This document shows, piece after piece, positions 3,699 to 24,639 of a DNA stretch of 24,639 bases (positions within the stretch are counted from its first letter, which is position 1; the number at the start of each line of letters is the position of its first letter). The DNA is from a virus: positions 1 through 24,639 of the IMG/VR virus record IMGVR_UViG_3300032275_000024, one strand, 5' to 3'. A model generated the notes under the pieces. The model saw only the letters and a program-made list of their open reading frames with translations, ran no database searches and was not told the DNA's origin. A program made the translations under genes and the position numbers.

Positions 3699-3795
3699 GT
3701 GCGGGGCGTGGATTGGCTCGAGCGTCTGCCTACTCGAGCGCGGTCACGCCACGATGCACGTCACCGGCGCGCCGTGTGCCGACGCTATGGTCTGA
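3668..3795 (+). pseudogene. Possible broken small Cys/His protein
   Basis: In the frame ending at TGA 3793-3795, the codons from about 3700 read CGAWIGSSVCLLERGHATMH then VTGAPCADAMV. This resembles the C-L/V-L-x-R/K-G-H-x-x-x-H pattern of many small phage zinc proteins. No start lies just upstream in that frame; the nearest ATG is 3514, buried in the previous gene. The ATG at 3668 (MAHRTEASR) is one frame away and would join smoothly if one base were missing near 3695. Chance similarity cannot be excluded. Confidence 0.3.
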
Positions 3796-4528
3796 CGAGC
3801 AGCAGGGCGGAGCCCGCCGGCCCTTCTGTGCCCCAGCCCGCCGCCACGGATAGCTCCATGGACAGGCCCAGAGCCCGCAGGGGCGGGGCCGCCAGCGCGA
3901 TGGCTGGTGCGAGTCCATGCGCTGACCCCAGGATGGCGACGCCAGCGCCCCAGCGGGCGCCCAGCGCCACAGGAGGGGCAGAGCCGAGCGCCTCCGTTAC
4001 GTCGGCCTGCCACGTCCCACTGACGAGCTGCGCCTTGGGTGCGGGGTCGAGCCGCCACGCCGCAGCGGCGCCGACCAGGACCCGGTTGCCGGCGCGCGTC
4101 TCGAACGTCACCTGGTCGACGCGGATCTCGGCGCGGTCGCCGGGGGCGAGCAGACACGGGGCTTCCTGTTTTGGGGTTACGATTGAGGAGGTGGCGACTG
4201 GACTTGGGGGACGAGGCTCTCCGGTGGCCGTGGCCGACCCCGTCGACGCACTCACTACCGAGACCACGCGGGCGCCGCGCGCCGCCTTCTCTGCGCGCTC
4301 GAGTGCCGCGCGCAACTCGGGGTTCTCCGCCGCGAGTCGGTCGCGATCGGCCTGGAGAGCATCCTTTTGCCGGCGCTCTTCGACGACGAGCCCCTGGGCG
4401 CTGAGTCTGCCCGCCTCGGCCATGCGCGCGAGCTCGGCCTGCGCCTCGGCTCCACGGTTGAGCTTGTACGCCAGCGCTCCAACCGCCGCGAGTCCGGCAA
4501 GCATCGCGATGATGACCGCGCGGGTCAT
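3785..4528 (-). CDS. Rz-like inner-membrane lysis protein (predicted i-spanin-like)
   Basis: 247 residues from the ATG at 4528, which overlaps the holin-like gene's stop (ATGA); longer upstream ORF readings are shadows. Residues 5-22 form one N-terminal membrane anchor. Residues 26-88 are an Ala/Glu/Arg-rich coiled coil, followed by a Pro/Ser linker and a single Cys125. The C-terminal ~60 residues have alternating hydrophobic stretches (GARWGAGVAIL, LSMELSVAAGW), beta-strand-like. Anchor plus periplasmic coiled coil is the layout of phage i-spanins, which help disrupt the outer membrane at lysis. It is longer than lambda Rz (153 aa), and no Rz1-type lipoprotein is seen embedded in or next to it. 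Confidence 0.6.
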   Translation of the reverse strand: MTRAVIIAMLAGLAAVGALAYKLNRGAEAQAELARMAEAGRLSAQGLVVEERRQKDALQADRDRLAAENPELRAALERAEKAARGARVVSVVSASTGSATATGEPRPPSPVATSSIVTPKQEAPCLLAPGDRAEIRVDQVTFETRAGNRVLVGAAAAWRLDPAPKAQLVSGTWQADVTEALGSAPPVALGARWGAGVAILGSAHGLAPAIALAAPPLRALGLSMELSVAAGWGTEGPAGSALLLVRP

Positions 4529-4872
4529 GGCGCGGGCGCCTGCGGCGGCTGGTCGACTCCAGCGGCTACGGGGGGTGCCCGGCGTCCAGTCTGCCGCAGC
4601 ACCTTGTAGGCCTGCCCAACGAACGACCCCAGCAAGCATCCGAGTAGCGCGCGCGCGCCTGCGCCCGCGGGAGCCCCGACCCATGGGATCCACAGCGCCG
4701 CGGTGCAGAGCATGAGCGGCAGCAGGGGTAGGAGGCGGATGACGAGCGGGCGCGCGAACAGTTCCGGGAGCACCCGGCGCGCTGTCGTGATGGCGATTGC
4801 CACCGAGCACACAACCACGATGTTCTCGGTCTTGATGACGATGGCCAGCAGCACGTTGGCGGCAGCTTCCAT
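4525..4872 (-). CDS. Putative holin
   Basis: 115 residues. AGGAG lies 8 nt before the ATG and overlaps the amidase stop codon. There are probable membrane helices at about residues 15-31, 43-64 and 67-86, then a Pro-rich polar tail (VDQPPQAPAP). Small size, three hydrophobic segments and position between an endolysin and an Rz-like gene fit a class I-type holin, which permeabilises the inner membrane at a set time. I do not recognise a specific family. Confidence 0.65.
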   Translation of the reverse strand: MEAAANVLLAIVIKTENIVVVCSVAIAITTARRVLPELFARPLVIRLLPLLPLMLCTAALWIPWVGAPAGAGARALLGCLLGSFVGQAYKVLRQTGRRAPPVAAGVDQPPQAPAP

Positions 4873-5977: not shown

Positions 5978-7177
5978 TTACGGGGTCTGGACCCCGACAG
6001 TGGTCCATGTCGCGCCCGCACCAGTACCGGCTACCGTGCAAATCTTCAGGACTCCGGCGGTGGTGACATAAATGTCGCCCACCACGACAGCCCCAGACGG
6101 ATACGAGTTTTGCGGGGTCAGATGCAGAAGCGGCTTGATCGGCGATGTGGTGTCGCCATCCACATATAGAGCGTAACCGTCCGTCGCGGTCGCCTTGATG
6201 GCGATGCCGGTCTCCTGGGCCAGTGCCTTGACAGCATACCCGCTTCCTGTGGAGGATTCGGCATAGACGGCCGCGCCGTTGCCGTACGCGGTCGAAGAGA
6301 TACCGTCGCCGTTTGTCGTGCCCCCGGAGAAAATACCACCTGTGCCGCTAGGCTCGCCGCCTGTCGCCGTGATGCCGGTACCGCTCGTCGGCCCGCCGGT
6401 GAACGTCCCTCCTTGGCCGGTCCCCGTCCCGACCGAGATGACGCCGGTGCCGTTGCCAGATCCGGCGGTGAACTTACCGGCAGTGCCGTTAGTAGCGCCG
6501 CCGTAGAAGTCGCCGCCGATGCCGCTGGTATGCCCGCCGAGGGCCTGGATGCCGTAGCCGGTGCCGTCGCCCGCGACGTACAGCCCGTCTCCGTCCGAGG
6601 CCCCGCCGTAGATTCTGGCGCCCTTGCCGTTCGTCGCACCTCCGCGAGCCTGCAGTCCGATGCCACCGCCTGCGCCGCCTGTCGTATAGACGCCGTACCC
6701 GCTACCGGCCCCCGTGGAGGTGATGCCGTAACCGGATCCGCTGTTCGTGGCGACGATGGCGGATCCACTGCTGCTGTTCGTGGCGGTGAGCGCTGCGGTG
6801 GCGGTGGAGCTCGACGCCGTGATTTGGTTGTTGAGCGCAGAAGATGCCGGGTAGTAGTGGTCACACGTCCAGACGGTGGCGCCAGCGGCGTCTTTCATGA
6901 CGATCTTGTATTCGGCCGCCGTCAGCCAGATTTCGCCGAACCAGCCGTTGCCGTCTGCAACCACCGGGTTCGCATTCGGCACCGTCAACGCCGAGTCGGA
7001 GTAGGTGTCCTTCGGCGTCGTCGTGGTGGGTAGGTAGAAGTAGAGCTTGGCGCTCGGGATGGCCGCGCCGGTGATGGTCTGCGCGCGGAACTTGGGGATG
7101 GTGAGATTCGACGCCGGAGCCGAGACGGCCCAAAGCGACAGGGAGAGGACGAGCAAGGCTCTGACGGACTTCTGCAT
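5978..7177 (-). CDS. Tail fibre/spike-like protein with P22-type head-binding start and a signal peptide
   Basis: 399 residues; AAGGAAAGG precedes the ATG. Residues 1-22 look like a Sec signal peptide: K3/R6, a leucine core, and an SAPA cleavage region. Residues about 24-108 match the N-terminal particle-binding module of P22-type spikes (IPSAKLYFYLPTTTTPKDTY, VVADGNGWFGEIWLTAAEYK). Residues about 125-340 are Gly/Thr/Ser-rich repeats around NGTG-x-(hydrophobic)-x-(hydrophobic)-GG, suggesting a beta-helix or trimeric fibre shaft. The C-terminus (VGDIYVTTAGVLKICTVAG, WTTVGV) is a common fibre ending. It would bind host surface receptors. A signal peptide on a virion protein is unusual. Confidence 0.7.
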   Translation of the reverse strand: MQKSVRALLVLSLSLWAVSAPASNLTIPKFRAQTITGAAIPSAKLYFYLPTTTTPKDTYSDSALTVPNANPVVADGNGWFGEIWLTAAEYKIVMKDAAGATVWTCDHYYPASSALNNQITASSSTATAALTATNSSSGSAIVATNSGSGYGITSTGAGSGYGVYTTGGAGGGIGLQARGGATNGKGARIYGGASDGDGLYVAGDGTGYGIQALGGHTSGIGGDFYGGATNGTAGKFTAGSGNGTGVISVGTGTGQGGTFTGGPTSGTGITATGGEPSGTGGIFSGGTTNGDGISSTAYGNGAAVYAESSTGSGYAVKALAQETGIAIKATATDGYALYVDGDTTSPIKPLLHLTPQNSYPSGAVVVGDIYVTTAGVLKICTVAGTGAGATWTTVGVQTP

Positions 7178-13268: not shown

Positions 13269-14498
13269 CTACTGGTAGTAGCCCGCAGGGGCGTACGCGG
13301 TGCCGTAGATGTCGTTCAGCCTGCTTGGGTCGCGTCCAACGTCAGCTCCGCCGTATGGGTCGGCGTAGCCCCCTCCTCCTCCACCGAAAGCGCCTGACGA
13401 CGCCCCGAACATGGCGAGGTTGCCGAGGTCGCCAAGCAGGTTGCTGCCGGCCTGCAGCCCCGCCCCGGCATAAGGAACACTGCCGTAGCGGGATGGCACG
13501 ATGCCCTGCATGGTGAGCTGCGCGTTGCCGGCTGCCACGTTGTTCAGCGAGTTCGCTCGAGCGGCCGCCGTGTTGGTGCCGATCTGCGCCAGGTTGCTGC
13601 CGAGGCCCGTGGACAGGTTGGCCAGATGTGCTCCCTCGTTGGCCGCCAGTCCGGACAGGTACGACCCTTCGGCGCTGTCGATGTTGGCAAGGGACGAGCC
13701 GCGCGCCATGTCGACATTCGCCAGAGATGACCCGCGGCGCTCGGACAGGCCAGATTGCGCAGACCCGCGGCGCTCGGACAGGTTGGCGAGGCCGGAGGTT
13801 GCCTGGTAGCCGACGTCGCCCAGGTGCATCTGCATGTTGCGGATGGCGAGATCGCGTTGCGCCGCTTGCCCAAACTCGTTCGACGCGAAGCCCTGGTTGT
13901 ACTCGGTGAGCTTCTTGAGCGCCGCTCCGCTGAGGCGGCCGCCGGCTGCGGACGTGGCGCGCGAGAGCGCTTGGTTACCCTGCTCGAGACGGAACTTGTA
14001 TCCGGGGTCTTGCTCGAAATTCGCGCCGAGGGGCGTCTTGACGGCGTCTTCTCCGTAGTGGCCGAGACCGGACAGACCGCTCAGTCGCGACTCGGCGCCG
14101 GCGTATCCGGCATCGAGTTGGCCGGCCGCTGCGTCGTAGGACGAGTTCAGTCGCGACTCGGCGCCGGAGAAGCCCTTGTTGAGGTTCGCTCGCGCCGCAT
14201 CTGCCCTCTGCGACCAGAGCTGAGCAGCACGCGTGTCGCCGGCTTGCAATGCCTGCCGTGATTTCGCCTCGGCCTGGGTGAGCAGGTTGCTGGCCTGCGT
14301 CCCGGCTTGCTCGATGAGATCCGAGCCCTGCTTGCCGGCCTCGATGCGCTGCTGTTGTGCGGCTTGCGTGTCTGCCCGGGCTTGGGCGTCCGCCTTCTCC
14401 TGAGCCTGTCCCTGCTTGCGGCGCTGGTAGTAGTCGAGCCCGGCTTTCGCCGCAATGACCCCGCCCGTGATGGCGAGGGCGGTTCCCGTTGCGATCAT
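13269..14498 (-). CDS. P22 gp7/gp20-like DNA-transfer (ejection) protein with 11-residue repeats
   Basis: 409 residues from ATG 14498: AAGGAG lies 6 nt upstream and the start overlaps the acetyltransferase stop, so the longer 517-codon reading is wrong. Residues 5-20 form a hydrophobic N-terminal helix, then Gln/Ala-rich coiled coil (31-105). Residues about 163-212 (DPGYKFRLEQGNQALSRATS, GGRLSGAALKKLTEYNQG) are the hallmark block of DNA-transfer proteins in P22-like phages. Residues 238-314 are seven consecutive 11-residue repeats (ANLSERRGSAQ, SGLSERRGSSL, ANVDMARGSSL and so on). The C-terminus is Gly/Tyr-rich. It is expected to be packaged in the head and ejected to form part of the DNA conduit. 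Confidence 0.8.
   Translation of the reverse strand: MIATGTALAITGGVIAAKAGLDYYQRRKQGQAQEKADAQARADTQAAQQQRIEAGKQGSDLIEQAGTQASNLLTQAEAKSRQALQAGDTRAAQLWSQRADAARANLNKGFSGAESRLNSSYDAAAGQLDAGYAGAESRLSGLSGLGHYGEDAVKTPLGANFEQDPGYKFRLEQGNQALSRATSAAGGRLSGAALKKLTEYNQGFASNEFGQAAQRDLAIRNMQMHLGDVGYQATSGLANLSERRGSAQSGLSERRGSSLANVDMARGSSLANIDSAEGSYLSGLAANEGAHLANLSTGLGSNLAQIGTNTAAARANSLNNVAAGNAQLTMQGIVPSRYGSVPYAGAGLQAGSNLLGDLGNLAMFGASSGAFGGGGGGYADPYGGADVGRDPSRLNDIYGTAYAPAGYYQ
13729..13782. repeat. 21-bp direct repeat, 33-bp period
   Basis: A 21-bp sequence beginning GACCCGCGGCGCTC occurs at 13729-13749 and, identically, at 13762-13782. The 33-bp spacing equals one 11-residue protein repeat (SERRGS...), so it records recent duplication of one hendecad unit in the ejection-protein gene. 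Confidence 0.85.
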
Positions 14499-14968
14499 TG
14501 CAGGCTCCTTGCGTAGATGGTCTCGAGTAGGCGGTAGCCCTTGTTGATGTAGACGCGGCCGACCTTCTGCGGCTCGCTGGCGCCGAGGGCCACCATGTAG
14601 AGCGCCTGGGCGCCCTGCTCCTTGGCCCACGCCTCCGCCGCGGACAGCAGGCGAGAGCCCAGGCCATGGCCCCGGCAATCGGGCCTGATGTACCAGGCGA
14701 GCTCGTGAGCCACCTGCGCATCTGGGCAGAGGGAGTGCGGCGACGTGGTGAGCAAGATGAACCCTGACGGCTTGGCGTCCACCGTCGCGACGATGAGCGC
14801 GCGCCCGTCCTCGAGCATGCACGTGCAGAGCAACGCGCCCAGGTAGTCGTCATTGCGTGGCGACACCTTGCCGAGTCCCGCGGCCGCGTAGAAGTCGCGC
14901 GCCATGGCGAGGACGTCATCAAGATCGGCGTCGACTGCCGGCCGGACCTCAACCACGTGCTCGTTCAT
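14495..14968 (-). CDS. GNAT-family N-acetyltransferase
   Basis: 157 residues. The fold is recognisable: N-terminal VEVRPAVDADLDDVLAMARD, central strands (ALIVATVDAKPSGFILL), strand HELAWYIRPDCRG, then the acetyl-CoA pyrophosphate-binding loop R99-G-H-G-L-G104 leading into helix SRLLSAAEAWAKEQGA, and the C-terminal VGRVYINKGYRLLETIYAR typical of GNATs. It would transfer acetyl from acetyl-CoA to an amine; the target is unknown. It sits, coupled (TGATG before, ATGA after), between connector and ejection-protein genes, where podoviruses sometimes carry an acetyltransferase. It may modify a virion or host protein. Confidence 0.85.
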   Translation of the reverse strand: MNEHVVEVRPAVDADLDDVLAMARDFYAAAGLGKVSPRNDDYLGALLCTCMLEDGRALIVATVDAKPSGFILLTTSPHSLCPDAQVAHELAWYIRPDCRGHGLGSRLLSAAEAWAKEQGAQALYMVALGASEPQKVGRVYINKGYRLLETIYARSLQ

Positions 14969-15321
14969 CAGAAGTGCCTAGCGCGAATGGGCGCCCGGGG
15001 GCGGCCCGCTGACGTCTGCGCGCACAGCGTTTGCCATCCCCGCGCCGCGTCGTTCTCGACTTCGATGCGCCGCTGGCCGGTGATCCCGAACACGCCAGAG
15101 AGGCGGCCGGCCATGTACTCCTCGAGCGCGAGCTGTGCCCACTCAGGGATCGTGGCGAGCGCGAACGGAGCCTTGTTGAGGCGGCGCAACTCGGCATGCA
15201 CCGAGTCAATCGCCGCCTCGGTCTTCACCTGGTCCTCTGCCGATGCCGGCTGCCCCGCCGCCTTCGCGCCAAGGCGCTCGAGCACCGCAGCTGCCAGCTC
15301 AGCTTTTGACCAGGTCGCCAT
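14968..15321 (-). CDS. P22 gp4-like head-tail connector (tail accessory factor)
   Basis: 117 residues from ATG 15321, with GGAGGG 5 nt upstream; the preceding gene's stop ends one base before it. The start MATWSKAELAAAVLERLG and the helix DQVKTEAAIDSVHAELRRLN resemble the helical connector family of P22 gp4 and related adaptors that ring the portal and recruit the gp10-like protein. It is somewhat shorter than P22 gp4 (166 aa) and has a basic end (RPRAPIRARHF). Gene order (coat, small protein, this, ejection proteins) supports the call. Confidence 0.7.
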   Translation of the reverse strand: MATWSKAELAAAVLERLGAKAAGQPASAEDQVKTEAAIDSVHAELRRLNKAPFALATIPEWAQLALEEYMAGRLSGVFGITGQRRIEVENDAARGWQTLCAQTSAGRPRAPIRARHF

Positions 15322-15322
15322 G

Positions 15323-15751
15323 TTAGCCCTCCGCGGGCGCCCCGGCGCCGCGCGGCTTCTTCTCGGCCGCGAGCGACAGCACACCGGAGTCGATCAGGAC
15401 GTCCAGCTTCGTCTTGCGGCCGGTCGGCTTGCCCGTCTTCGGATCCAGGTCGACCTTGACCAGGTCGCTGCTCGTCGGCACTTCGACGGGCTCGCCCTTC
15501 CTGAAGACGATGCCGTAGATCTCGCGCTCGGCGTCCATGCCCGCCAAGCTCTTCTCGAGGTCGGCGCGCTTCTGCGCGAACCAGGCCTTGCGGGCCTCGC
15601 GCTTGCGCTCCTTGATCGTCTCGTGGTCGTCGCGGTCGATCTCGTACTTCTTCTCCTCGCCGCGCTTCTCGGGCGGGACCGCCGCTGCAAGCTCGGACTC
15701 GATGGCCGCCTTCTGGTGCTCTTTCGTGATGCCTTGGTAGATGACCTTCAT
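15323..15751 (-). CDS. Head-region protein of unknown function
   Basis: 142 residues from ATG 15751, with an AGAGAG-type site just upstream. The start MKVIYQGITKEHQKAAIESE is followed by a strongly charged helix (residues about 30-70, Lys/Glu/Arg-rich) and a strand-rich half (IYGIVFRKGEPVEV, SSDLVKVDLDPKTGKP); the tail is Ala/Pro/Lys-rich. The family is not recognised. Its place between coat and gp4-like connector suggests a structural or assembly protein, for example a decoration or head-completion factor. Confidence 0.65.
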   Translation of the reverse strand: MKVIYQGITKEHQKAAIESELAAAVPPEKRGEEKKYEIDRDDHETIKERKREARKAWFAQKRADLEKSLAGMDAEREIYGIVFRKGEPVEVPTSSDLVKVDLDPKTGKPTGRKTKLDVLIDSGVLSLAAEKKPRGAGAPAEG

Positions 15752-15781
15752 CGCACTCTCTCTTGTCGGTTGGGTGAGAGA

Positions 15782-15812
15782 GCGGGCGCCAGCCACAACG
15801 ACCAGCGCCCGC
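15782..15812 (-). terminator. GC hairpin just downstream of the coat gene
   Basis: GCGGGCGC at 15782-15789 pairs perfectly with 15805-15812, leaving a 15-nt loop. It lies 15 nt past the coat stop in the minus-strand transcript. After the stem comes TCTCTC rather than a U-run, so a partial attenuator or an mRNA-stabilising 3' structure for the highly expressed coat message is as likely as a true terminator. Confidence 0.4.
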
Positions 15813-15827
15813 CCAGCTCACGAGCTA

Positions 15828-16910
15828 CTAGGTGTCGGCGACGCCGGACACGTAGAGGGTCAACACGCCGTTCTGGACGCCGTTGAACATCAGCTTGTCC
15901 ACGCCTCGCATCTCGGAGACGCCACGGCCCTTGATGTTGCCGTAGTCGTACTCGTCGAAGATGGCGTGCGTCTCCTCGCCGATGGCGAAGCCCACCGCTT
16001 GCGCGCCGAGCATGTAGCAGGGGGCGACAGCGATGCCCGCTGCGCCGACGCCGGCGATGGTCGAGATCTCGGGCACCTCGTGGATGATGACGCCATCCCA
16101 AACGATGTCACCGTCGCGGAACAACGGGTTGTTCTCGCCGCGGACGCCAGCGCCCTGGTGAGCGGCGACGGTGGTCGCGTGCATCTTCATGTCGCGGAAC
16201 GCGACGCTCGGAACCAGCAGCAAGAACCACTCGCCGCCGCCGTCCACGCGGATGGGCCGCATGTTGGGCTTGGTGGTCGCGACGCGGCGTGCGACGCGCT
16301 TGGCGAGCGACACGATGGCCGGCTGCAGGATGTCGTTCGTGCTGTCGACGTTCAGCAACGAGGCCGAGTGGTCGGCCGCCGAGTAGTTGCCCACCGCGGC
16401 GCCGAACAGGACGCGGTCACCCGTGTACTGAGCGGTAACCCACGTGTCCTTTTGCGCCTCGGAGCAGCTCGCATAGGCGGTGCTGCCGTCCGCGTTCGGC
16501 GAGCCGAGCGCGACAAGCACCTCCTCGCGTGCCTTGTCCATGCGCCAGTTTTTGAGGGTCTTCTTGGCCGCATTGAGCAGAGGGATGTGGGTCTTCTTCT
16601 GCTCCATCTTGCCGACCGACACCGCGTTGCGGAGCTGGTCGATCGTGATCTTGTGGCCGAAGTTGCCCTGTGCGACCTCGCTGCCGAACAGCGTAGAGTC
16701 GCCGGTGACGCCGGCATTGGTGAGCCGCGAAACCATCGAAACGGTGATCTGGTCACCGGGGACGGTCTTGAGCTCGTTGATGACCTGGATCGGCGCATCG
16801 TCGCTCGTGCCCATGTAGGGCTCGAGCTCGTTGTCGCGCATCCACTCGGTGTAGAATTCCTTGGACCACTGCTGAACGTTGTTCGCAGCGGCTACGCTCG
16901 TGTTTGCCAT
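15828..16910 (-). CDS. Major coat (capsid) protein, N4 gp56-like
   Basis: 360 residues. The start (ANNVQQWSKEFYTEWMRDNE) and the blocks ITVSMVSRLTNAGVTGDSTL, FGHKITIDQLRNAVSVGKME and LLVPSVAFRDMKMHAT match the HK97-fold coat family typified by N4 gp56/DUF4043. The C-terminal part (FDEYDYGNIKGRGVSEMRGV) is also typical. It would form the icosahedral shell with the scaffold encoded just upstream. It is followed by a hairpin and a spacer of about 75 nt, one of the larger gaps in this compact operon, as expected for the most strongly expressed gene. Confidence 0.85.
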   Translation of the reverse strand: MANTSVAAANNVQQWSKEFYTEWMRDNELEPYMGTSDDAPIQVINELKTVPGDQITVSMVSRLTNAGVTGDSTLFGSEVAQGNFGHKITIDQLRNAVSVGKMEQKKTHIPLLNAAKKTLKNWRMDKAREEVLVALGSPNADGSTAYASCSEAQKDTWVTAQYTGDRVLFGAAVGNYSAADHSASLLNVDSTNDILQPAIVSLAKRVARRVATTKPNMRPIRVDGGGEWFLLLVPSVAFRDMKMHATTVAAHQGAGVRGENNPLFRDGDIVWDGVIIHEVPEISTIAGVGAAGIAVAPCYMLGAQAVGFAIGEETHAIFDEYDYGNIKGRGVSEMRGVDKLMFNGVQNGVLTLYVSGVADT

Positions 16911-16950
16911 GACTCTCCGCCTTCTCTGCGGCGATGGTCACGGGCGGGGG

Positions 16951-17775
16951 TTAGTAGGACTTGCGCCGATGCTTCGAATAGAGCGCTGCGTCCACTCCCG
17001 TTTGTGCCCGTGGCTCTGCCGCACTGACGCCTGCGCCCGTGGCGCCGGCATTGCTGTGTGGTACTTGAGTCGCGGAGTCGATCGTCTCTTGCTCTTTGAG
17101 CCTGCTCTCGAGTTCTTGGATCTTGGCGGTGAGTGCCTTTTCCTTCGCGCCGCCGGTCTGTTGCTTCTCGACGAACCGCTTGGCCCATCGATAGGCGTAC
17201 TCAGCCGGCCGCGTCTGGCGCAGGAGGCGACGATTCATGGTCGGGTCGAGCTTCGCTTGCTGAGCGAACACACCCTCCATCTCGTCGTAGTCCTCGTGCT
17301 CGTCGCGCATCTCGGCAACATCGTCGGACAGCCTCTCTTGCCACTCTTGCGCCCTCTCAGCTCTCAGGATCTCGCGCGTGCGCGCCTCCTGGAAGCCAAC
17401 GGGGTCTTGCCAGAGTTGGGCCTCGAGCTCCGCCTTCGACAATGCCGCCGGTTTCTCCGGTTCGATGCGCGACGGACCTTGCCGCCGCAAAACCTCAAGC
17501 TCTCCGAGCGCCCTTTGGTGCTCAAGCTCGATCTTCTGCCGCTTCTCCCTCTCTGCCTTCGCAACCGCATAGGGCACGGTTTTGGGCTCGTGCAGATCGG
17601 AGCCTTGCGACTCAGCCGGAGCTTGCTGGCTGGTCTTCGGCGGCGGAGCAAAGTCAGGGTGCCCAACTCCCGAGTTATCGGCCGGAGACGCCGAGGCACC
17701 TTGGCTGCTGTCCGCTGCTGGCGGAGGAGGTGCCTCCGCTGCTTGCTTGGCTGCCATTTCCGCTGCGATACCCAT
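16951..17775 (-). CDS. Scaffolding protein (predicted)
   Basis: 274 residues if ATG 17775 is used; an in-frame ATG at 17841 would add 22 residues but lacks a ribosome site. The N-terminal ~65 residues are Ala/Pro/Ser-rich and disordered, then come long charged helices (AKAEREKRQKIELEHQRALG, KALTAKIQELESRLKEQE). The end KHRRKSY is basic, like the short positive C-terminal helix of P22 gp8 that contacts coat. Low complexity, coiled coils and position between portal and coat are the classic signs of a scaffold. No enzyme motif is present. Confidence 0.75.
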   Translation of the reverse strand: MGIAAEMAAKQAAEAPPPPAADSSQGASASPADNSGVGHPDFAPPPKTSQQAPAESQGSDLHEPKTVPYAVAKAEREKRQKIELEHQRALGELEVLRRQGPSRIEPEKPAALSKAELEAQLWQDPVGFQEARTREILRAERAQEWQERLSDDVAEMRDEHEDYDEMEGVFAQQAKLDPTMNRRLLRQTRPAEYAYRWAKRFVEKQQTGGAKEKALTAKIQELESRLKEQETIDSATQVPHSNAGATGAGVSAAEPRAQTGVDAALYSKHRRKSY

Positions 17776-17857
17776 GATAGTTGCCCTTTTCTCGCCCGTG
17801 TTGCCGGCGGCGCAATCGCCCATTGAGAGGGTTGGCGGCACCCGTACTTACTGCATA

Positions 17858-17881
17858 GGTTGCCATACTATCTCAGCAACC
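17858..17881. promoter_or_regulatory. Short inverted repeat in the gap upstream of the scaffold gene
   Basis: GGTTGC at 17858-17863 mirrors GCAACC at 17876-17881 around a 12-nt AT-rich centre. It lies in the 123-bp untranslated gap before the scaffold ATG, the largest inside the structural operon. A TTGACG hexamer (minus strand, 17886-17881) is adjacent, but no -10 box stands at the right distance. It might be an operator or a weak hairpin. Confidence 0.25.
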
Positions 17882-17898
17882 GTCAAACGAACTCTCGA

Positions 17899-18807
17899 TT
17901 ACTGGTAGGAGACTTCCCACTTGGTGATGATAGTCGACTCCGCGACATCCGCGTCATGCCGCAGGTGCACGAACGGTATAACCGCGTCGCCGTCGTCGAG
18001 AGTGAACGCTGCGACCGTCGTCGGGGCGGCGTTGTCGGTCTTGTAGGTCACCACGCCGGCTGCGGAGACGAGTGTGCAGAGCTTGTGCGTCTCCGCATCT
18101 GCCCAGTTGTCGGTGGTGTCGGTGCTGGTAATGCCGCCGCTGTTGAGGTTCGTCTTGAGGTAGATGTCCCCGGACACGCTGCCGATGGCGGCGAAGTCCG
18201 TGTAGGTGGGCGTGGCGTTCATCGCGGCAACGATGCGGAAGCCCGCGAACATGAAGTCCGAGCCGCTCACGTCGGTGAGCTTGATCGTCGCGCAGAACTG
18301 GAACGCCGGGTCCTTGCCGACGATGAACGGTCGGCCCGAGGCACCCAGCACGCCGCTGAACAACTCCAAGCCGTCGTTGTCGACCAGGTCGGCCGAGATA
18401 TCCAGGCCGGTAGCCACCATCGCAGGGGCGAGCGTCTCCGTGACGACCGACGCCCACATCAGGAGCATGCCATCGCCGAGCGTCAGCACTGCGGGGACGG
18501 TGGTCGTCAGGCCCGCCACGGTTAGGCCGGTACTCCACGCGAGTTGCGACAGGCCCTTGCCCGCGCCCCACTTGCTAAAATCCTCGTAGAGTCCTTGGCC
18601 GAGCGGCGCCGCCGCCGTGCCGTTGCTCAGGATGTAGACGCCCTTGGAGTTGACCTCCTGGTAGACGCCATCCGAGCGGCCAGCGAAGGCGCCCGTGCGA
18701 CCGGCGGCGCGGAACACGTCCGGGTCGGCCTGAGTGTTGCCGGCAAAGGCCGGGCTGGAGAGAAGCACCGCCATGACGGCGGCAGAGAGCACCAGGAACC
18801 TCTTCAT
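17899..18807 (-). CDS. Sec-signal-bearing beta-rich protein in the head operon
   Basis: 302 residues. ATG 18807 is preferred over GTG 18810 because AAGGAG then lies 6 nt away; it overlaps the portal stop (TGATG). Residues 1-22 are a textbook Sec signal peptide (K2-R3, hydrophobic core, AFA cleavage before G23). After it come a Gly/Ala-rich stretch and a strand-rich domain from about residue 125 (FQFCATIKLTDVSGSDFMFA, GVVTYKTDNAAPTTVAAF, FVHLRHDADVAESTIITKWE) resembling the jelly-roll/lectin-like virion proteins common in environmental phages. It could be a surface or decoration protein; why it carries a signal peptide is unclear. Confidence 0.68.
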   Translation of the reverse strand: MKRFLVLSAAVMAVLLSSPAFAGNTQADPDVFRAAGRTGAFAGRSDGVYQEVNSKGVYILSNGTAAAPLGQGLYEDFSKWGAGKGLSQLAWSTGLTVAGLTTTVPAVLTLGDGMLLMWASVVTETLAPAMVATGLDISADLVDNDGLELFSGVLGASGRPFIVGKDPAFQFCATIKLTDVSGSDFMFAGFRIVAAMNATPTYTDFAAIGSVSGDIYLKTNLNSGGITSTDTTDNWADAETHKLCTLVSAAGVVTYKTDNAAPTTVAAFTLDDGDAVIPFVHLRHDADVAESTIITKWEVSYQ

Positions 18808-20978
18808 CACTGTCTCCTTGCAAACCCTGCCGCCATGGCAGGGGGTTGTTGCATCTGCGGAACGGATCGTTGCCCGGCCTCGACGGCCTTGTGCATCGCG
18901 TTCGCCTCGTGGAGTTGCGCCGCGGACTGCAGGCCGGGGATTTCCGCCACCGTTCGTGCCGTCTCGGCCTTGATCTTGTCGATCTCGGCCATGAGCTTCG
19001 CGAGCTCCGCCTGCATCGACTGCATCTGCATGGCCACCTGCTGCTGCTGGGCCTGCGCCTGCGCCTGGGCGGCCGCGGGATCCTGCGGCTTGGACATCTC
19101 TTCGATCTGGGCGATGAGTTTGCGCTTGTCGCGCAGCTGCGAGGCCTCGAGCAGCATCTTCATCACCGGGATCGGGGTCATCGCGGGGTTGAAGACGCCC
19201 TTGGCCGCCATGTCGGCCAGCATCTCGAACTGCTCTTCCTGGACGATGGCCATGTCGGGAGAGGTTTCGAGGATGATGTCGACGCCGATGCTCGACACGT
19301 CGTTGGCGATGAACTCTCCACGCAGCGCCGGCGAGCGCATGAGGAACATCTCGAACGCCTTCGCGCCCTCTTGCTGGGCTAGCTGCTGCATCTCGGGGGG
19401 CAGGTTGTTGACGTCGAGCCCGCGCTTCTTCGCCTCGAGCGCGATAAGCTGCTGGGCCTGGTTCTTCGCCTCTTCGATCGTCGACTGGATAGCCTCCGGT
19501 TCAAGGCCGACCATCTCGAGAGCATCGACCAGGTGCACGCCATCTTTGACGAGCTCCTGCAGGCGCGCCGCCTTGGTCATGCGCCGATTGAGGCCGACGA
19601 AGCGATAGCCGCTCTTCTTCTCGTCGTCCCCGACGCGCAGCCACATCTCGCTGGGCCAGTACTGGCGGATCAGCCACCAGAAGCCGAGGATCACGCCGTG
19701 CTGCCACTCTTCGATGTTGGCGAACAGCCCGCGCAACTCCGTGTTGCCGATTTGCTTCTTGCGCAGGATGGCGATGCCGCTCGCCGACTTGTCCCCGGCG
19801 ATGACCGGAGCGCTCGGGCCCGTCGCGTCGATCTCGGCCTTGGCCTCGGCGAGCAGCTGCGCCTGGCCGCCGGCCATGTCGACGTTCTCGACGACCTTGA
19901 CCTTGCCGCCGACGAGCGCGCCGGCGCTGACCTCGGCGGCGCCGTCCGGCTTGGCCAACTCGGTCTGGAAGTCCTGAACATTGTCGATCGCTCCGGTCTC
20001 GTAGATCACGCGGCGCTGCATCAGGGCATGCAGGAGCAGGCTGCGCCGCTTGTTGATCTCATCCTGGGGCGACAGCATGTTTTTGACCGGCCCGTAGCGG
20101 TCGTTGGTTCGCGACGTCTTCGCCGAGACCGGGCGAAGCGGGCACCAGGTGTTGCCGTCCTCATCCACGAACGGCACGAGCATGGGCTTGATGAGAAATT
20201 CATGGCGCACGAAGTGCGCGAGCCACCACTGCCCACCCTCGCGCCAGTAGCACTCAGCGACCTTGATCCGCCCACCCTCTTTGGCATCGTACCAGCTCTC
20301 TGGGCGGTCCTGGTGCGCCTCTCCCGGGAGCGCGGACCCTGAGGCTGTCGACGCGTTGCGGATGAGGGCCTCGGCACCGGGATACTTGGCGTACTTCTCG
20401 ACGGCGTCGTCCTCGGCGAGCCACGTGACGACGCCAAGATAGCGCGCGTCCTCGAGCAGCGGCATCCGCGAGCGCGGGTCACGCCAAAAGCGGTCGTACG
20501 GGACGTGGTCGAGCGTGAGACGCACCCGCTTGCCGTCGACCTTGACGCCGAGCAGGCCCGCGCTCAGGCCTTCCACGAAGAGTTCGCCAGCCACGGCGGT
20601 GCGGGTCTTGTCGAAGTTCGCGCCCTCGCGTCCGGCTGCATAGCGCAGCGCGTCCGTGATGGCCTGCGCTCCCGATTCCTCGGCCGGCGTGCGAGGCAGA
20701 GCCTTCGGGTCAATGCGCGTCTCGATCTCGCCGCCGATGAGGAAGTCGACCTTGGGGGCGATGCGGTTGCTCGTGACCACAGGCTGGCCGCACCGCTCGA
20801 GCTCGGTCTTCTCGTCGTCGGTCCACTGCTCGCCATCGTAATAGTTGCGAGCCGTCTCGGCTGTCTCGCGCTCGGAGTGGGTGACTTCGTCGGCTTCTTC
20901 GTACCACTTCACCAGACGCCGGAGGGTTACTTGACTCTCCAAGCCCTTACTGGTGCTCTTCCCGTCGACGTCTGCCAT
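18807..20978 (-). CDS. Portal protein, P22 gp1 family
   Basis: 723 residues, against 725 for P22 gp1. GAGG precedes the ATG. The N-terminal block (AETARNYYDGEQWTDDEKTE, PVVTSNRIAPKVDFLIGGE) and the central LRPVSAKTSRTNDRYGPVKN and MLSPQDEINKRRSLLLHALM are family landmarks. The C-terminal third is long helix, then Gln/Ala-rich coiled coil (AQAQAQAQQQQVAMQMQSMQ), like the barrel of P22 portal. The dodecameric portal forms the vertex through which terminase pumps DNA. It overlaps the terminase nuclease ORF by 52 bp, much more than any other junction in this operon. Confidence 0.9.
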   Translation of the reverse strand: MADVDGKSTSKGLESQVTLRRLVKWYEEADEVTHSERETAETARNYYDGEQWTDDEKTELERCGQPVVTSNRIAPKVDFLIGGEIETRIDPKALPRTPAEESGAQAITDALRYAAGREGANFDKTRTAVAGELFVEGLSAGLLGVKVDGKRVRLTLDHVPYDRFWRDPRSRMPLLEDARYLGVVTWLAEDDAVEKYAKYPGAEALIRNASTASGSALPGEAHQDRPESWYDAKEGGRIKVAECYWREGGQWWLAHFVRHEFLIKPMLVPFVDEDGNTWCPLRPVSAKTSRTNDRYGPVKNMLSPQDEINKRRSLLLHALMQRRVIYETGAIDNVQDFQTELAKPDGAAEVSAGALVGGKVKVVENVDMAGGQAQLLAEAKAEIDATGPSAPVIAGDKSASGIAILRKKQIGNTELRGLFANIEEWQHGVILGFWWLIRQYWPSEMWLRVGDDEKKSGYRFVGLNRRMTKAARLQELVKDGVHLVDALEMVGLEPEAIQSTIEEAKNQAQQLIALEAKKRGLDVNNLPPEMQQLAQQEGAKAFEMFLMRSPALRGEFIANDVSSIGVDIILETSPDMAIVQEEQFEMLADMAAKGVFNPAMTPIPVMKMLLEASQLRDKRKLIAQIEEMSKPQDPAAAQAQAQAQQQQVAMQMQSMQAELAKLMAEIDKIKAETARTVAEIPGLQSAAQLHEANAMHKAVEAGQRSVPQMQQPPAMAAGFARRQ

Positions 20979-21523
20979 CTATCCTCGCGCTTCTTGTCCT
21001 GAGTTCGTACTATCGCGGGATGCGCGTTGTCAATCACCAGGAACAGCAAACTTAGCGCATCGACAGCGTCGTCATGCTCACCGGCCGGGAACGCGATGAG
21101 TTGCTCTACGACCCTCCCTGCCCAATCTGTCTCCGGAAATATCACACGCCCCATCGAGGCCCATGCTTGGCAGGCGCGTGCGCGCACCGCCTTGTCGGCT
21201 ATCGGGGCAACCCACTCCTGCTGGAAGTACACACCAAGCTCGCTGCAGCGGCGGTTGAGCTGAGGTTCGATGGCTCTGCGGATGACGCCGGCTTCCCCGA
21301 ACCAACACAGCGGCTTGTGGCGCTTCACGAGATCGAGCAGCGCATCTATCCATACATCGGCGGTTACCTGTCCGTGCCACCAGTCGATGACGTAGACGCG
21401 GTCGTCGGGGCCTATGCCGTAGACGCCATGCTCGGTGAAGTCCGGATCCACGCCCTCAGCGGCCTCGCGCACGGCGAAGTCGCTGGCCATGTAGATCCTA
21501 AGCGACTCGGGTAGCGTCGCCAT
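20927..21523 (-). CDS. terL: Large terminase, C-terminal nuclease domain (separate ORF)
   Basis: 198 residues. This is the RNase H-like packaging nuclease of TerL: D15 in YMASDFAV, E77 in FGEAGVIRRAIEP, and D151/D152/D155 in HDDAVDALSLL supply the metal-binding acidic triad; IADKAVRARACQAW is the usual DKxxRA block. It lacks an ATPase domain, which is encoded by the ORF overlapping its start by 26 bp in another frame. An AAGGTGG sequence just before ATG 21523 could permit its own initiation. Together the ORFs give about 490 residues, the normal TerL length. Either a split gene or a single-base frameshift explains it. It cuts concatemers during packaging. Confidence 0.85.
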   Translation of the reverse strand: MATLPESLRIYMASDFAVREAAEGVDPDFTEHGVYGIGPDDRVYVIDWWHGQVTADVWIDALLDLVKRHKPLCWFGEAGVIRRAIEPQLNRRCSELGVYFQQEWVAPIADKAVRARACQAWASMGRVIFPETDWAGRVVEQLIAFPAGEHDDAVDALSLLFLVIDNAHPAIVRTQDKKREDRWQTSTGRAPVRAWRVK

Positions 21524-22400
21524 GCTTCCACCTTTCCGCGAACCACTCGCGCCGGAAGTAGGTTCCCTGGTCTACCGTGGGCCGTTGCATGTACTGCGCG
21601 TACCACTCGCGCATTCGGCCCGCCTTGGTCATCTGCCCGCGGAGCTGCCGCATCTCGCTGAGGGGGAACCACTCTGGCCACAGCGCCTCTGGCTGCTCGG
21701 TGTCCTCTTTGGAGATCGCTGGCATCTCGAGCACGGTCCAAAGCTCGCCCTCGGTCTTGAGCAGCCGGCCGGCGAGGTCGTCGACGTGCCATCGGGTCAT
21801 CATCAGCAGGATCCCGCCGCCCGGCATCAGGCGCGTGTGGAGATTGCCCCAGTACCAGCGCCATGCGATCTCGCGCATGCGCAGCGAGTCGGCCTGCTCG
21901 CGGCCCTTGATCGGGTCATCGATGATCGCTCTGTGCGCTCCGCGGCCGACGATAGGCCCGCCGACGCCGGCGGCGACGTAGATACCTCCCCCCGTCGTTC
22001 GCCAGCGGCCCGCGGCCTGCGAGTCGGCGCGCAGCTCGACGCCCGGAAAGATGTGCTGGTAGTACGGGTCGCGCAGGATGTCGCGCACATCCTGCCCGAT
22101 GTCGTGCGCGAGCTCGTCGCCGTAGCTGGCGCTGATGACCTGGTGATCCGGATGTCGTCCCAAGTACCACGCCGGGAACCGGCGGCTCGCGATCTCGCTC
22201 TTGCTACACCGCGGCGGAGCGAAGATCATCAACCGGCGAATCTCGCCGCTCTCGAACTTCTCCATGGCCTCGCAGATGCGCCGGTGATGCGCCCCCGAGC
22301 CCCAACAGGGGTGGGTGTACTCGACGAACGGCAACAGCCTGTCGCGCGCCGCCTGGCGCCTCAGAATGGCCTGCGCGGCCTCTTGCGGGGTGATGGCCAC
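21498..22400 (-). CDS. terL: Large terminase, N-terminal ATPase domain (separate ORF)
   Basis: 300 residues. The motor motifs are in order: Walker A-like APPRCSKSE at 61-69, DHQVISASYGDELA after it, Walker B with catalytic acid IIDDP at 159-163, and coupling motif LLMMTRWHVDDLAG at 198-210. The end REWFAERWKHGDATRVA stops where the nuclease domain should begin; the rest of TerL follows in the +1 frame. The Walker A loop has Ser where this family normally has Gly before the catalytic Lys (usual form PPRHGKSE). It hydrolyses ATP to translocate DNA into the prohead through the portal. Confidence 0.87.
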   Translation of the reverse strand: MAITPQEAAQAILRRQAARDRLLPFVEYTHPCWGSGAHHRRICEAMEKFESGEIRRLMIFAPPRCSKSEIASRRFPAWYLGRHPDHQVISASYGDELAHDIGQDVRDILRDPYYQHIFPGVELRADSQAAGRWRTTGGGIYVAAGVGGPIVGRGAHRAIIDDPIKGREQADSLRMREIAWRWYWGNLHTRLMPGGGILLMMTRWHVDDLAGRLLKTEGELWTVLEMPAISKEDTEQPEALWPEWFPLSEMRQLRGQMTKAGRMREWYAQYMQRPTVDQGTYFRREWFAERWKHGDATRVA

Positions 22401-22414
22401 ATGTCGACCGGTGG

Positions 22415-22633
22415 CTACGTCTGCTCGGCGGCCAGCATGGCGGCCTCGCGCTTAGCGAACCGTGCGACCTCGCGCACCCCATAGCCCTTGGCGCGCATCG
22501 CCGCGACGAGCGGGCGCACGCGGTCGGCGATCGCTGCCTCTACCGGCGTCACGTCCGTCTTGACCTCCATCTCGGCCAGGACGCGCACGACACGGTCGAG
22601 CCGCACCCCGTTGACGACGCCATACCACTTCAC
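22415..22633 (-). CDS. Hypothetical 72-aa basic protein
   Basis: The ATG at 22633 overlaps the stop of the preceding gene (ATGA). The product starts MKWYGVVNGVRLDRVVRVLA and is largely helical and basic, with a segment YGVREVARFAKREAAMLA resembling a helix-turn-helix-like half. No family is recognised. It lies directly before the terminase ATPase ORF, where small DNA-binding or packaging accessory proteins occur. Confidence 0.6.
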   Translation of the reverse strand: MKWYGVVNGVRLDRVVRVLAEMEVKTDVTPVEAAIADRVRPLVAAMRAKGYGVREVARFAKREAAMLAAEQT

Positions 22634-22866
22634 TGCACCCTCGGGATGGTGATCAGCTGCTGTGCGTGGGTGAGGTTGATGAACTTCGCCAGGCGCTCGA
22701 GTTGCGCGTCGTCGAGGATGAAGCCGAACTCCTTGGCGTTCACCTCCACGTTGCGGTCGAACTCGACAGAGAAGACGGCCGCATGGCCGCCGTTGAACGG
22801 CTGTAGGTAAATCCCCTTCACCTTCGCCGCATGCTGCCCGTCGATGTTCCAGGATGGTCTGCTCAT
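22630..22866 (-). CDS. Hypothetical 78-aa protein
   Basis: GAGGAAAG lies about 10 nt before ATG 22866. The protein has a strand-rich first half (KVKGIYLQPFNGGHAAVFSV, EFDRNVEVNAKEFGFIL) and a C-terminal helix (DAQLERLAKFINLTHAQQLI). It is not recognised. It begins 38 bp from the oppositely directed lipoprotein gene, so the short divergent gap 22867-22904 may hold initiation signals for both; I cannot identify clear promoter boxes there. Confidence 0.6.
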   Translation of the reverse strand: MSRPSWNIDGQHAAKVKGIYLQPFNGGHAAVFSVEFDRNVEVNAKEFGFILDDAQLERLAKFINLTHAQQLITIPRVQ

Positions 22867-22904
22867 GGTGTCCGCTTTCCTCTCCGTGCTACGCTTGGCA
22901 GTGC

Positions 22905-23198
22905 ATGGGAACCCTTCTCGCTTTGGCTATCGTCGCCTGTGCGCACCCCGTCGCGCCACCGATGCCCGACACCGTCGAGGCGCGGCTCGAGGGCTACGCC
23001 CATGGTGTCTGCTACACGAAGCCGTGGAAGGGCGACGACCAGGTGGAGATGCCGTTTCACTGTACCATCGCCATGTGCAAGTACATGCGCGAGCATCGCT
23101 ACGACGACATACGCGACCGGAAGCCGGAGCCAATTCGGCGCCAGCCGGCTGCGGTTGAGCGACTCTCTTCCGACTTCCTGAACAGCCATTCCAGCTGA
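22905..23198 (+). CDS. Small predicted lipoprotein on the opposite strand
   Basis: 97 residues from ATG 22905. The start MGTLLALAIVACAHPVAPP gives a lipobox I9-V10-A11-C12, so processing by signal peptidase II at Cys12 is predicted, although the n-region lacks Lys/Arg and the signal is short. The mature part has C36, C53 and C58 (GVCYTKPWKG, FHCTIAMCKYM) and a polar basic tail. No strong ribosome site is visible. It runs against the late operon, ends one base from the convergent gene's stop, and fills what would otherwise be a 333-bp hole. Candidates are an outer-membrane exclusion or conversion protein, or an o-spanin placed away from the lysis genes. Confidence 0.6.
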   Translation: MGTLLALAIVACAHPVAPPMPDTVEARLEGYAHGVCYTKPWKGDDQVEMPFHCTIAMCKYMREHRYDDIRDRKPEPIRRQPAAVERLSSDFLNSHSS

Positions 23199-23199
23199 C

Positions 23200-23742
23200 C
23201 TAGCGATTCGGTCCACCATCTGCGTCCACCTGGGCCTGTGCGCGCTTGCGCGCGTCCTCGAGTTCGTCGAAGTACTTCGGGTTGAGGGCGCGCTTGATGA
23301 GATCTTGCTGAGCCGGATCGAGGCCGGACAAATCAACGCCGACAAGTTGCCGCGGTCCCGCTCGCTTGGCCATATCGGCATCGGAGTCCGTTGCCTGCAG
23401 CCGGGCGCGGTAGCGGTTCGCGACGTCGGGAACGAGCGCCTCAACGCCGAACTGGCCCGCGTCGTGATCGACGCCACGGGGCGTGCGCGACCAGATCACG
23501 CGCTGGTCGAGCAAGTCCCACAGGGGCTTGTTCTCGTCAACCGGAGCGCCACTCGCTGCGTCGCGCTTCTTCTTCGCAGCCACGCGCGCAGAGAGGATGC
23601 CCGCGGCCGCGGGCGACGCACCGGCGGCGGACTGCGCCGCAGCGTTCGCGCGCAGCTCGTCGAGGGGGCTTCCTGTCCAGCGCGCGCCGCGCGCCGCCAT
23701 CTGTCCTGAAACGATGTCGAGAAGGCTGCTCGGTTTAGGCAT
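23200..23742 (-). CDS. Hypothetical phage protein, 180 aa
   Basis: ATG 23742 is chosen because it overlaps the preceding gene by 8 bp; the upstream 43 codons are Arg/Ser-rich shadow. The start MPKPSSLLDIVSGQMAARGA is followed by an Ala-rich region (residues about 30-60), a central block KPLWDLLDQRVIWSRTPRGV and a helical C-terminus (LDPAQQDLIKRALNPKYFDE). No family is assigned. Its place between a sheet-like virion protein and the small ORFs ahead of terminase suggests a packaging or structural accessory role. Confidence 0.62.
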   Translation of the reverse strand: MPKPSSLLDIVSGQMAARGARWTGSPLDELRANAAAQSAAGASPAAAGILSARVAAKKKRDAASGAPVDENKPLWDLLDQRVIWSRTPRGVDHDAGQFGVEALVPDVANRYRARLQATDSDADMAKRAGPRQLVGVDLSGLDPAQQDLIKRALNPKYFDELEDARKRAQAQVDADGGPNR

Positions 23743-24067
23743 AGTCGCGCACTCCGTTGTCGATGCCGCGCCACCGCAAGCGCTCGATGAGCGTCTGGCC
23801 GCCGCTCGTGACGATCTTGAGATCTCCCGTGCCTGTCTTGCCGACGCGAATGGTCGCCGTCGTCGTGTCATTGCTGCTCGCGTCGTTGGTCGGCCCGTTG
23901 AGCGTCCAGGTCACGGACGCGATGGTCTCGCCCGCGAGGCGGTCGGCGAAGTCAAAGACGTAGGTTTTCGACTCGTCCTGATACTTGCTGGTCGTCAGTC
24001 GACCATCGAGGTCGCGGAACCAACCATCGGTGCGGCTGTCGGTAGGTGGAATGAAGTGGGTTGGCAC
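23735..24067 (-). CDS. Phage fibre/adaptor-like beta-sheet protein
   Basis: 110 residues from a GTG start that follows the small terminase's TAG directly; AGCGGA lies upstream. The central part, KTYVFDFADRLAGETIASVTW then TATIRVGKTGTGDLKIVTSG, matches the pattern of small virion proteins found beside terminase genes in many environmental phages (a polarised start, TIASxTWT, alternating strands, then a GGQT(L)xR(L)R ending). They are thought to be Ig-like structural or fibre-associated proteins. Exact location in the virion is unknown. Confidence 0.65.
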   Translation of the reverse strand: MPTHFIPPTDSRTDGWFRDLDGRLTTSKYQDESKTYVFDFADRLAGETIASVTWTLNGPTNDASSNDTTTATIRVGKTGTGDLKIVTSGGQTLIERLRWRGIDNGVRDYA

Positions 24068-24520
24068 CTATTTCCGCTCAACTATCCCGCCGGCGGCGAT
24101 TGCCATGAGTTCATCGGTTGTACATTCGTCAACCTTCCGCGTCAACAGTGGGCGCTTTGGGTCGCTACCAAGGTCCATGCGGTCTCGATACTTCTCGGGC
24201 TTGCCGCCCTTGAGCATGAAGATCAACAGGGTGTCGGAGTACCGCTTGATCGCACCGCACGTGGAGCCCTGGTAAAAGACGGGCTCGTCCACGCCCTCGA
24301 TGGCGCGCCTCCACGCCTCATCCTCTGCGGCTTCCAGCCCGATGGCGCGAGCCTTGTCCCACTGCTCCGCGAACTCGGGGTCCGCCTCGCGCTCTCGGTA
24401 GAGCGTCGTGCGCGACACGCGCAGCTTGTCGCCGATGGCGGTCACGTTTGGGCAGTCGGCGAGTTCCGAGAGGAATCGCGCCTTCTTTTTCGGCGTCAAC
24501 CCTGTGCCCACTCCGCGCAT
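24068..24520 (-). CDS. terS: Small terminase subunit (predicted)
   Basis: 150 residues from ATG 24520, chosen because GGTGAG lies about 5 nt upstream and the start overlaps the preceding stop (TGATG); the extra 34 codons upstream are shadow. Residues about 8-35 (LTPKKKARFLSELADCPNVT then AIGDKLRVSRTTLYREREAD) form a helix-turn-helix. The later RYSDTLLIFMLKGGKPEKYR block is the hallmark of one widespread small-terminase family. It would recognise the packaging site and load the large terminase. It is first in the packaging order on this strand, seven genes before the portal. Confidence 0.8.
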   Translation of the reverse strand: MRGVGTGLTPKKKARFLSELADCPNVTAIGDKLRVSRTTLYREREADPEFAEQWDKARAIGLEAAEDEAWRRAIEGVDEPVFYQGSTCGAIKRYSDTLLIFMLKGGKPEKYRDRMDLGSDPKRPLLTRKVDECTTDELMAIAAGGIVERK

Positions 24521-24639
24521 CAGCTCACCCGCGACAGGTCGGCGCAGTCGGGCGTGAGCATGTCGGCAGCGCGCAGCATCGCCTGCCGATAGCGCTCCAC
24601 GTGCCGGCGGCTGATGCCGCACAGGTGCAGCCGTGCCGG
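24520..24639 (-). CDS. 3' end of an unidentified gene running off the right edge
   Basis: Forty codons are open from the window edge to TGA (24522-24520), overlapping the small terminase start (TGATG). The visible C-terminus, RLHLCGISRRHVERYRQAML then RAADMLTPDCADLSRVS, contains a helix-turn-helix-like segment. The close coupling supports a real gene. The 5' part is outside the window, so family and length cannot be judged. Confidence 0.6.
   Translation of the reverse strand, partial: PARLHLCGISRRHVERYRQAMLRAADMLTPDCADLSRVS

Follow-up and report, generated by a model that had tools for sequence, protein, structure and literature searches.

Background

Models of force transmission in the phage large terminase subunit (TerL) include the hinge that joins its ATPase and nuclease domains. 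Cutting phage T4 gp17 at the linker is reported to leave the ATPase and nuclease activities in place and to abolish translocation completely (PMC3012670, PMC9958956). TerL is also reported to be interrupted by an intein in Mic1 (PMC7156551) and by group I introns in Bastillevirinae (PMC11878797). Searches of the open-access literature (PMC) brought up no TerL naturally split at the hinge.

The locus reported here shares both domains and their order with the TerL proteins (PF03237/PF17289, TIGR01630 type) of the Pseudanabaena phages Pam1 and Pan3, of Phage CBW1004C-Prop1 and of contig L386. Identity to the halves of the Pam1 protein is 45 to 55%. However, TerL is encoded by one ORF in each of these four, whereas here it is encoded by two.

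Results and discussion

Organization of the TerL locus

The window (the whole stretch of DNA analysed) is a viral record of 24,639 bases from a metagenome; the genes for packaging and structure lie on its minus strand. TerL has its ATPase half (21498..22400, minus strand) in an ORF that is 300 aa long, starts at a GTG and ends in HGDATRVA, followed by a stop codon. The RNase H-like nuclease half (20927..21523, minus strand) is 198 aa long, starts at an ATG and has the N-terminus MATLPESLRIYMASDF. The two ORFs share 26 bp (21498..21523, minus strand), a stretch identical in a second contig described below, and the nuclease frame is +1 relative to that of the ATPase (22400-21523 = 877 = 3x292+1). 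The coordinates thus bear out the original prediction of overlapping ATPase and nuclease ORFs, with a 26-bp overlap and a +1 change of frame, and place both genes on the minus strand. A single ORF carrying both domains, the arrangement at most of the loci compared below, is absent; there are two ORFs in different frames.

The split gene occupies the genomic position of a TerL, between the terminase small subunit (TerS; 24068..24622, minus strand; phrog_4044, E 3e-33) upstream and the portal protein (18807..20978, minus strand; phrog_156, E 3.7e-81), which overlaps the nuclease half, downstream. TerS is separated from the ATPase half by approximately 1.6 kb (22415-24067) containing small ORFs without PHROG matches; in L386 the spacing between the TerS and TerL ORFs is approximately 0.5 kb. 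A GNAT-type acetyltransferase (phrog_1249) is encoded amid the structural genes (14495-14968, minus strand).

Identity and integrity of the two halves

The ATPase half matched Terminase_6N (PF03237) above the cut-off (E 1.8e-9). The nuclease half matched TIGR01630 with 71.4 bits (cut-off 41.65) and fell just under the cut-off for Terminase_6C (21.7 against 22.6 bits). Both aligned to consecutive parts of the PHROG TerL profile phrog_38, the ATPase half to positions 255-534 and the nuclease half to 546-733 of 760; such consecutive matches to a single TerL profile are far beyond chance.

Conservation was scored on 73 one-ORF relatives, at columns that at least 90% of them share. The nuclease half keeps all 27 of its conserved columns, and the acidic catalytic residues D15, E77 and D151/D152 are present, as in a C-terminal RNase H-like nuclease. 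The ATPase half keeps 57 of 61, as in an N-terminal TerL ATPase; those kept include P62, P63, K67, S68, D161 and D162, which we take to belong to Walker-type motifs. Two of the four deviations, L269Q and Q271M, lie near the cut; residue 269 is leucine in all 73 relatives and residue 271 is glutamine in 69. Four or more deviations among the 61 columns were also found in 21 of the 73 one-ORF relatives themselves. The two substitutions near the cut (near 21590) are possibly tied to loss of the covalent hinge.

Solved structures searched by sequence, using either the ATPase or the nuclease profile, gave no match up to E 1, and a fold search was needed. The predicted model of the nuclease ORF is a full domain (mean pLDDT 89) with its first strand at residues 9-15, and it matched the nuclease domains of RB49 gp17 and G20c as well as T4 gp17. 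For the nuclease half, as for L265, a relative with one ORF, the best structural match was the PhiV-1 terminase in complex with the defence protein Avs3 (8dgc), which raises the question of whether a split TerL might alter recognition by such defences.

Judged from these comparisons, the two halves are predicted to be TerL-derived domains that work like TerL, although not as a one-chain TerL. Neither looks decayed, though a recent break would give the same picture.

Position of the break

The ATPase half stays in frame through the motif REWF in an alignment of 31 rows. The proline of the motif LP, which at least 90% of relatives share, is encoded in the nuclease frame, downstream of the ATG and five residues into the ORF. 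The change of conserved frame therefore falls within approximately 28 bp (21512..21539, minus strand), from the phenylalanine of REWF to the proline of LP in the alignments, in a variable hinge. In the structure predicted for L265 (mean pLDDT 88.8), the equivalent of the cut follows the last ATPase helix (251-270) and precedes the first nuclease strand (298-304); it is in predicted coil with little secondary structure. On these models, a cut in the variable hinge leaves a complete nuclease fold.

Start of the nuclease chain

The Shine-Dalgarno-like sequence AAAGGTGG (21528..21535, minus strand) ends 4 nt before the nuclease ATG and is the only copy in the window. The computed pairing with the anti-Shine-Dalgarno sequence at this ATG was -9.1 kcal/mol. 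Only one of the 18 starts listed had a stronger value, and some of the 18 are merely the first start of an ORF. Pairing of this strength occurs at 1.6% of the 314 ATGs on the minus strand, the nuclease ATG included, and at none of the 112 internal in-frame ATGs of window genes (3 of 251 when GTG and TTG were counted as well). In a 34-codon hinge window, 51 of 256 unique one-ORF relatives have an in-frame ATG and only one has an ATG this strong; with GTG and TTG starts, nine of the 256 reach the same strength. None did so at -7 or better in a stricter set of 61 relatives, in which the hinge was located by a regular expression.

The plausible ribosome site proposed ahead of the second ATG is thus a strong Shine-Dalgarno sequence. 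Since the threshold was the window's own value, picked after inspection, and the genomes compared vary in composition, the comparison is a strong suggestion, rather than a pre-planned test, in favour of separate initiation over recoding. Such initiation of the nuclease would probably be coupled to translation of the ATPase.

Distribution among relatives

Relatives of either half were collected from viral contigs, prokaryote genomes and phage records, three of the scans contributing their best 80 matches each. A locus was scored as one-ORF if profile matches to both domains shared one stop-to-stop ORF. Among the matches listed, 381 loci had a TerL domain match, several contigs being counted twice, and 359 of these (302 unique segments) had both domains in one ORF. 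The remainder comprised ten loci with a nuclease only, six with an ATPase only and six with the domains in different ORFs. Five of the last six are the window and its sister contig in repeat copies, and these form the only clean split among the 381 loci from the matches listed.

The sixth, L214 (Neoroseomonas terrae LMG 31159), was taken to be a broken remnant, with partial profile coverage of both domains. In this prophage-like TerL an incomplete ATPase ORF is adjacent to an incomplete nuclease ORF, and intact copies are present elsewhere in the strain (L188 and L191). In nine of the 16 single-domain loci (six nuclease-only, three ATPase-only) the ORF reaches the end of the available stretch, and in six (three of each) the domain lies in a long ORF (479-600 aa) in which the score for the other half was too low; L216 has only a partial nuclease near a contig end. 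Searches with the portal and capsid genes gave the sister contig and two distant relatives, L386 and L385. The former, reached via its capsid gene, has the same TerS-TerL-portal order with a single 509-aa TerL; the latter is a short contig in which no ATPase or nuclease match was found.

By parsimony, the one-ORF TerL is taken to be ancestral and the split derived in this lineage. The nearest relatives among the matches listed share no more than about 60% identity with either half, too little to date the split.

The ATPase half is nearest to L003 (60% identity; 42% in the nuclease) and the nuclease half to L225 (60%; 49% in the ATPase), again among the matches listed. Separate origins of the halves, suggested by these identities, are not claimed: the position of the window in the nuclease tree is poorly fixed, and the AU test rejected neither its grouping with L003 and L004 (P = 0.39) nor that with the wider ATPase clade (P = 0.11). 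L163, L225, L247 and other one-ORF relatives group differently in the ATPase and nuclease trees. L163, for example, has its ATPase with L223 and L238 and its nuclease with L165 and L262, as if domains had been swapped at the hinge.

Alternative explanations

A one-base sequencing or assembly error could have produced the split, as the original prediction allowed. The window does come from a metagenomic viral record and, among the matches listed, its close relatives all have one ORF. However, a search with the ATPase half revealed a second contig with the split, IMGVR_UViG_3300032173_000031 (28,107 bases). It differs from the window by 7 mismatches over 8,093 bp and, over a further stretch of 12,861 bp, by 99 mismatches and one gap opening; neither aligned stretch covers the first 3,688 bases of the window. 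From these mismatches it is a different genotype with its own assembly. Window and sister contig are identical over 13627-23180, the junction included, and the sister was the sole match to a 24-mer from the junction. The site has no homopolymer longer than three bases. With the same junction in a diverged, separately assembled contig, a one-base error is very improbable, and an assembly error common to both contigs is unlikely on the sequences compared. Relatives with one continuous ORF, which had been expected to count against a real split, were found at 359 of the 381 loci among the matches listed; they mark the split as derived and, since the sister contig also has it, do not point to an error. 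Substitutions between the two contigs cluster in 3699-4555 and 6044-6998 and are absent from 13627-23180, as if by recombination.

A real break need not give a working terminase. A recent frameshift may have broken TerL, leaving genomes that are defective or that are carried by complementation or as a decaying prophage. The split is confined to one lineage and may be young, as the two genotypes are identical across 13627-23180, and a cut at the hinge is harmful in T4. Two genotypes nevertheless have the split, no further damage is seen at the 27 nuclease columns or beyond the four deviations among the 61 ATPase columns, and the nuclease start with its Shine-Dalgarno sequence fits separate translation better than chance in the relatives; we consider a broken gene unlikely. 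Alternatively, a +1 shift by a fraction of the ribosomes at the hinge might yield full-length TerL, with or without the two short chains. The overlapping frames do differ by +1, and T4 requires its hinge, but positive evidence is wanting. No classical slippery site had been noted from the letters and none was seen here: the junction has no slippery run and no homopolymer longer than three bases, and its RNA folds no better than shuffled sequences (z-score 0.64), although the lack of a known type of programmed +1 site is still compatible with recoding. If ribosomes shifted at the stop codon, the LP stretch that relatives conserve would be replaced, and recoding leaves a strong Shine-Dalgarno sequence directly before an in-frame ATG unexplained, making it a rather doubtful explanation. 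An intein- or intron-split TerL was rejected because the ORFs overlap, so that there is no insert; an Rfam search of 20800-22600 gave no match up to E 1.

A split TerL in one lineage

The observation of a split is correct and probably reflects real biology in one lineage. The presence of the junction in two genotypes, the conserved columns kept, the cut in the hinge, the strong Shine-Dalgarno sequence and the LP proline in the nuclease frame point to a lineage-specific fission of TerL, giving two chains that are initiated separately and act in concert. We favour this explanation with reasonable confidence, counting within it cases in which two chains are made but work poorly. Against it are the loss of translocation on hinge cutting in T4 and the four ATPase deviations, two of them near the cut. 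Given that no diverged relative among the matches listed shares the split and that the two genotypes are identical across the junction, selection to keep it cannot be shown.

Under fission, a net change of frame in the ATPase/nuclease hinge would end the first ORF a few codons later, and the nuclease would begin at its own ATG, 8 residues ahead of its first strand. The strong Shine-Dalgarno sequence within the end of the ATPase gene would drive this start, probably coupled to translation of the ATPase. The two chains would then join without a covalent hinge, the ATPase ring powering translocation and the nuclease giving a DNA-contacting surface and making the initiation and termination cuts. 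The genuine split with coupled motor and nuclease that had been offered as one option is favoured by the strong Shine-Dalgarno sequence and ATG, by the intactness of the domains and by where the cut falls; synthesis of both chains, their assembly and working packaging are inferred.

Conclusions

The chances are about even that this phage has a natural two-chain motor, in which the ATPase ring and the nuclease/translocation domain assemble by a contact surface alone and still package DNA. If so, the covalent hinge would not be essential to this class of motor and the two parts could vary in number. As T4 gp17 loses translocation when split at the hinge (PMC3012670), a working split motor would be notable, and a phage encoding the domains apart is a natural test of the need for a covalent link. 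A split motor would also have two parts that can be produced, combined and counted independently. Should the phage instead produce a small amount of fused protein, the hinge would be a new place for recoding. The value of the split depends on its function, which lies beyond what sequence settles.

Other separately encoded pieces of TerL may be held in two PHROG families annotated as terminase large subunit, phrog_4758 (243 positions) and phrog_5573 (250 positions), which match the ATPase half or both halves. Judged from the profiles alone, they are half-length like the halves in the window; phrog_5573 starts inside the ATPase end, so that its break, if real, is elsewhere. In Mic1 and the Bastillevirinae the TerL coding sequence is interrupted, as it is here, but by inserts after which the product is rejoined, whereas the window has no insert. 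The laboratory cut of the T4 gp17 linker is the same kind of break, with the domains parted at the hinge. However, the cut in T4 was engineered, whereas the break in the window is natural and its second chain has its own start and Shine-Dalgarno sequence.
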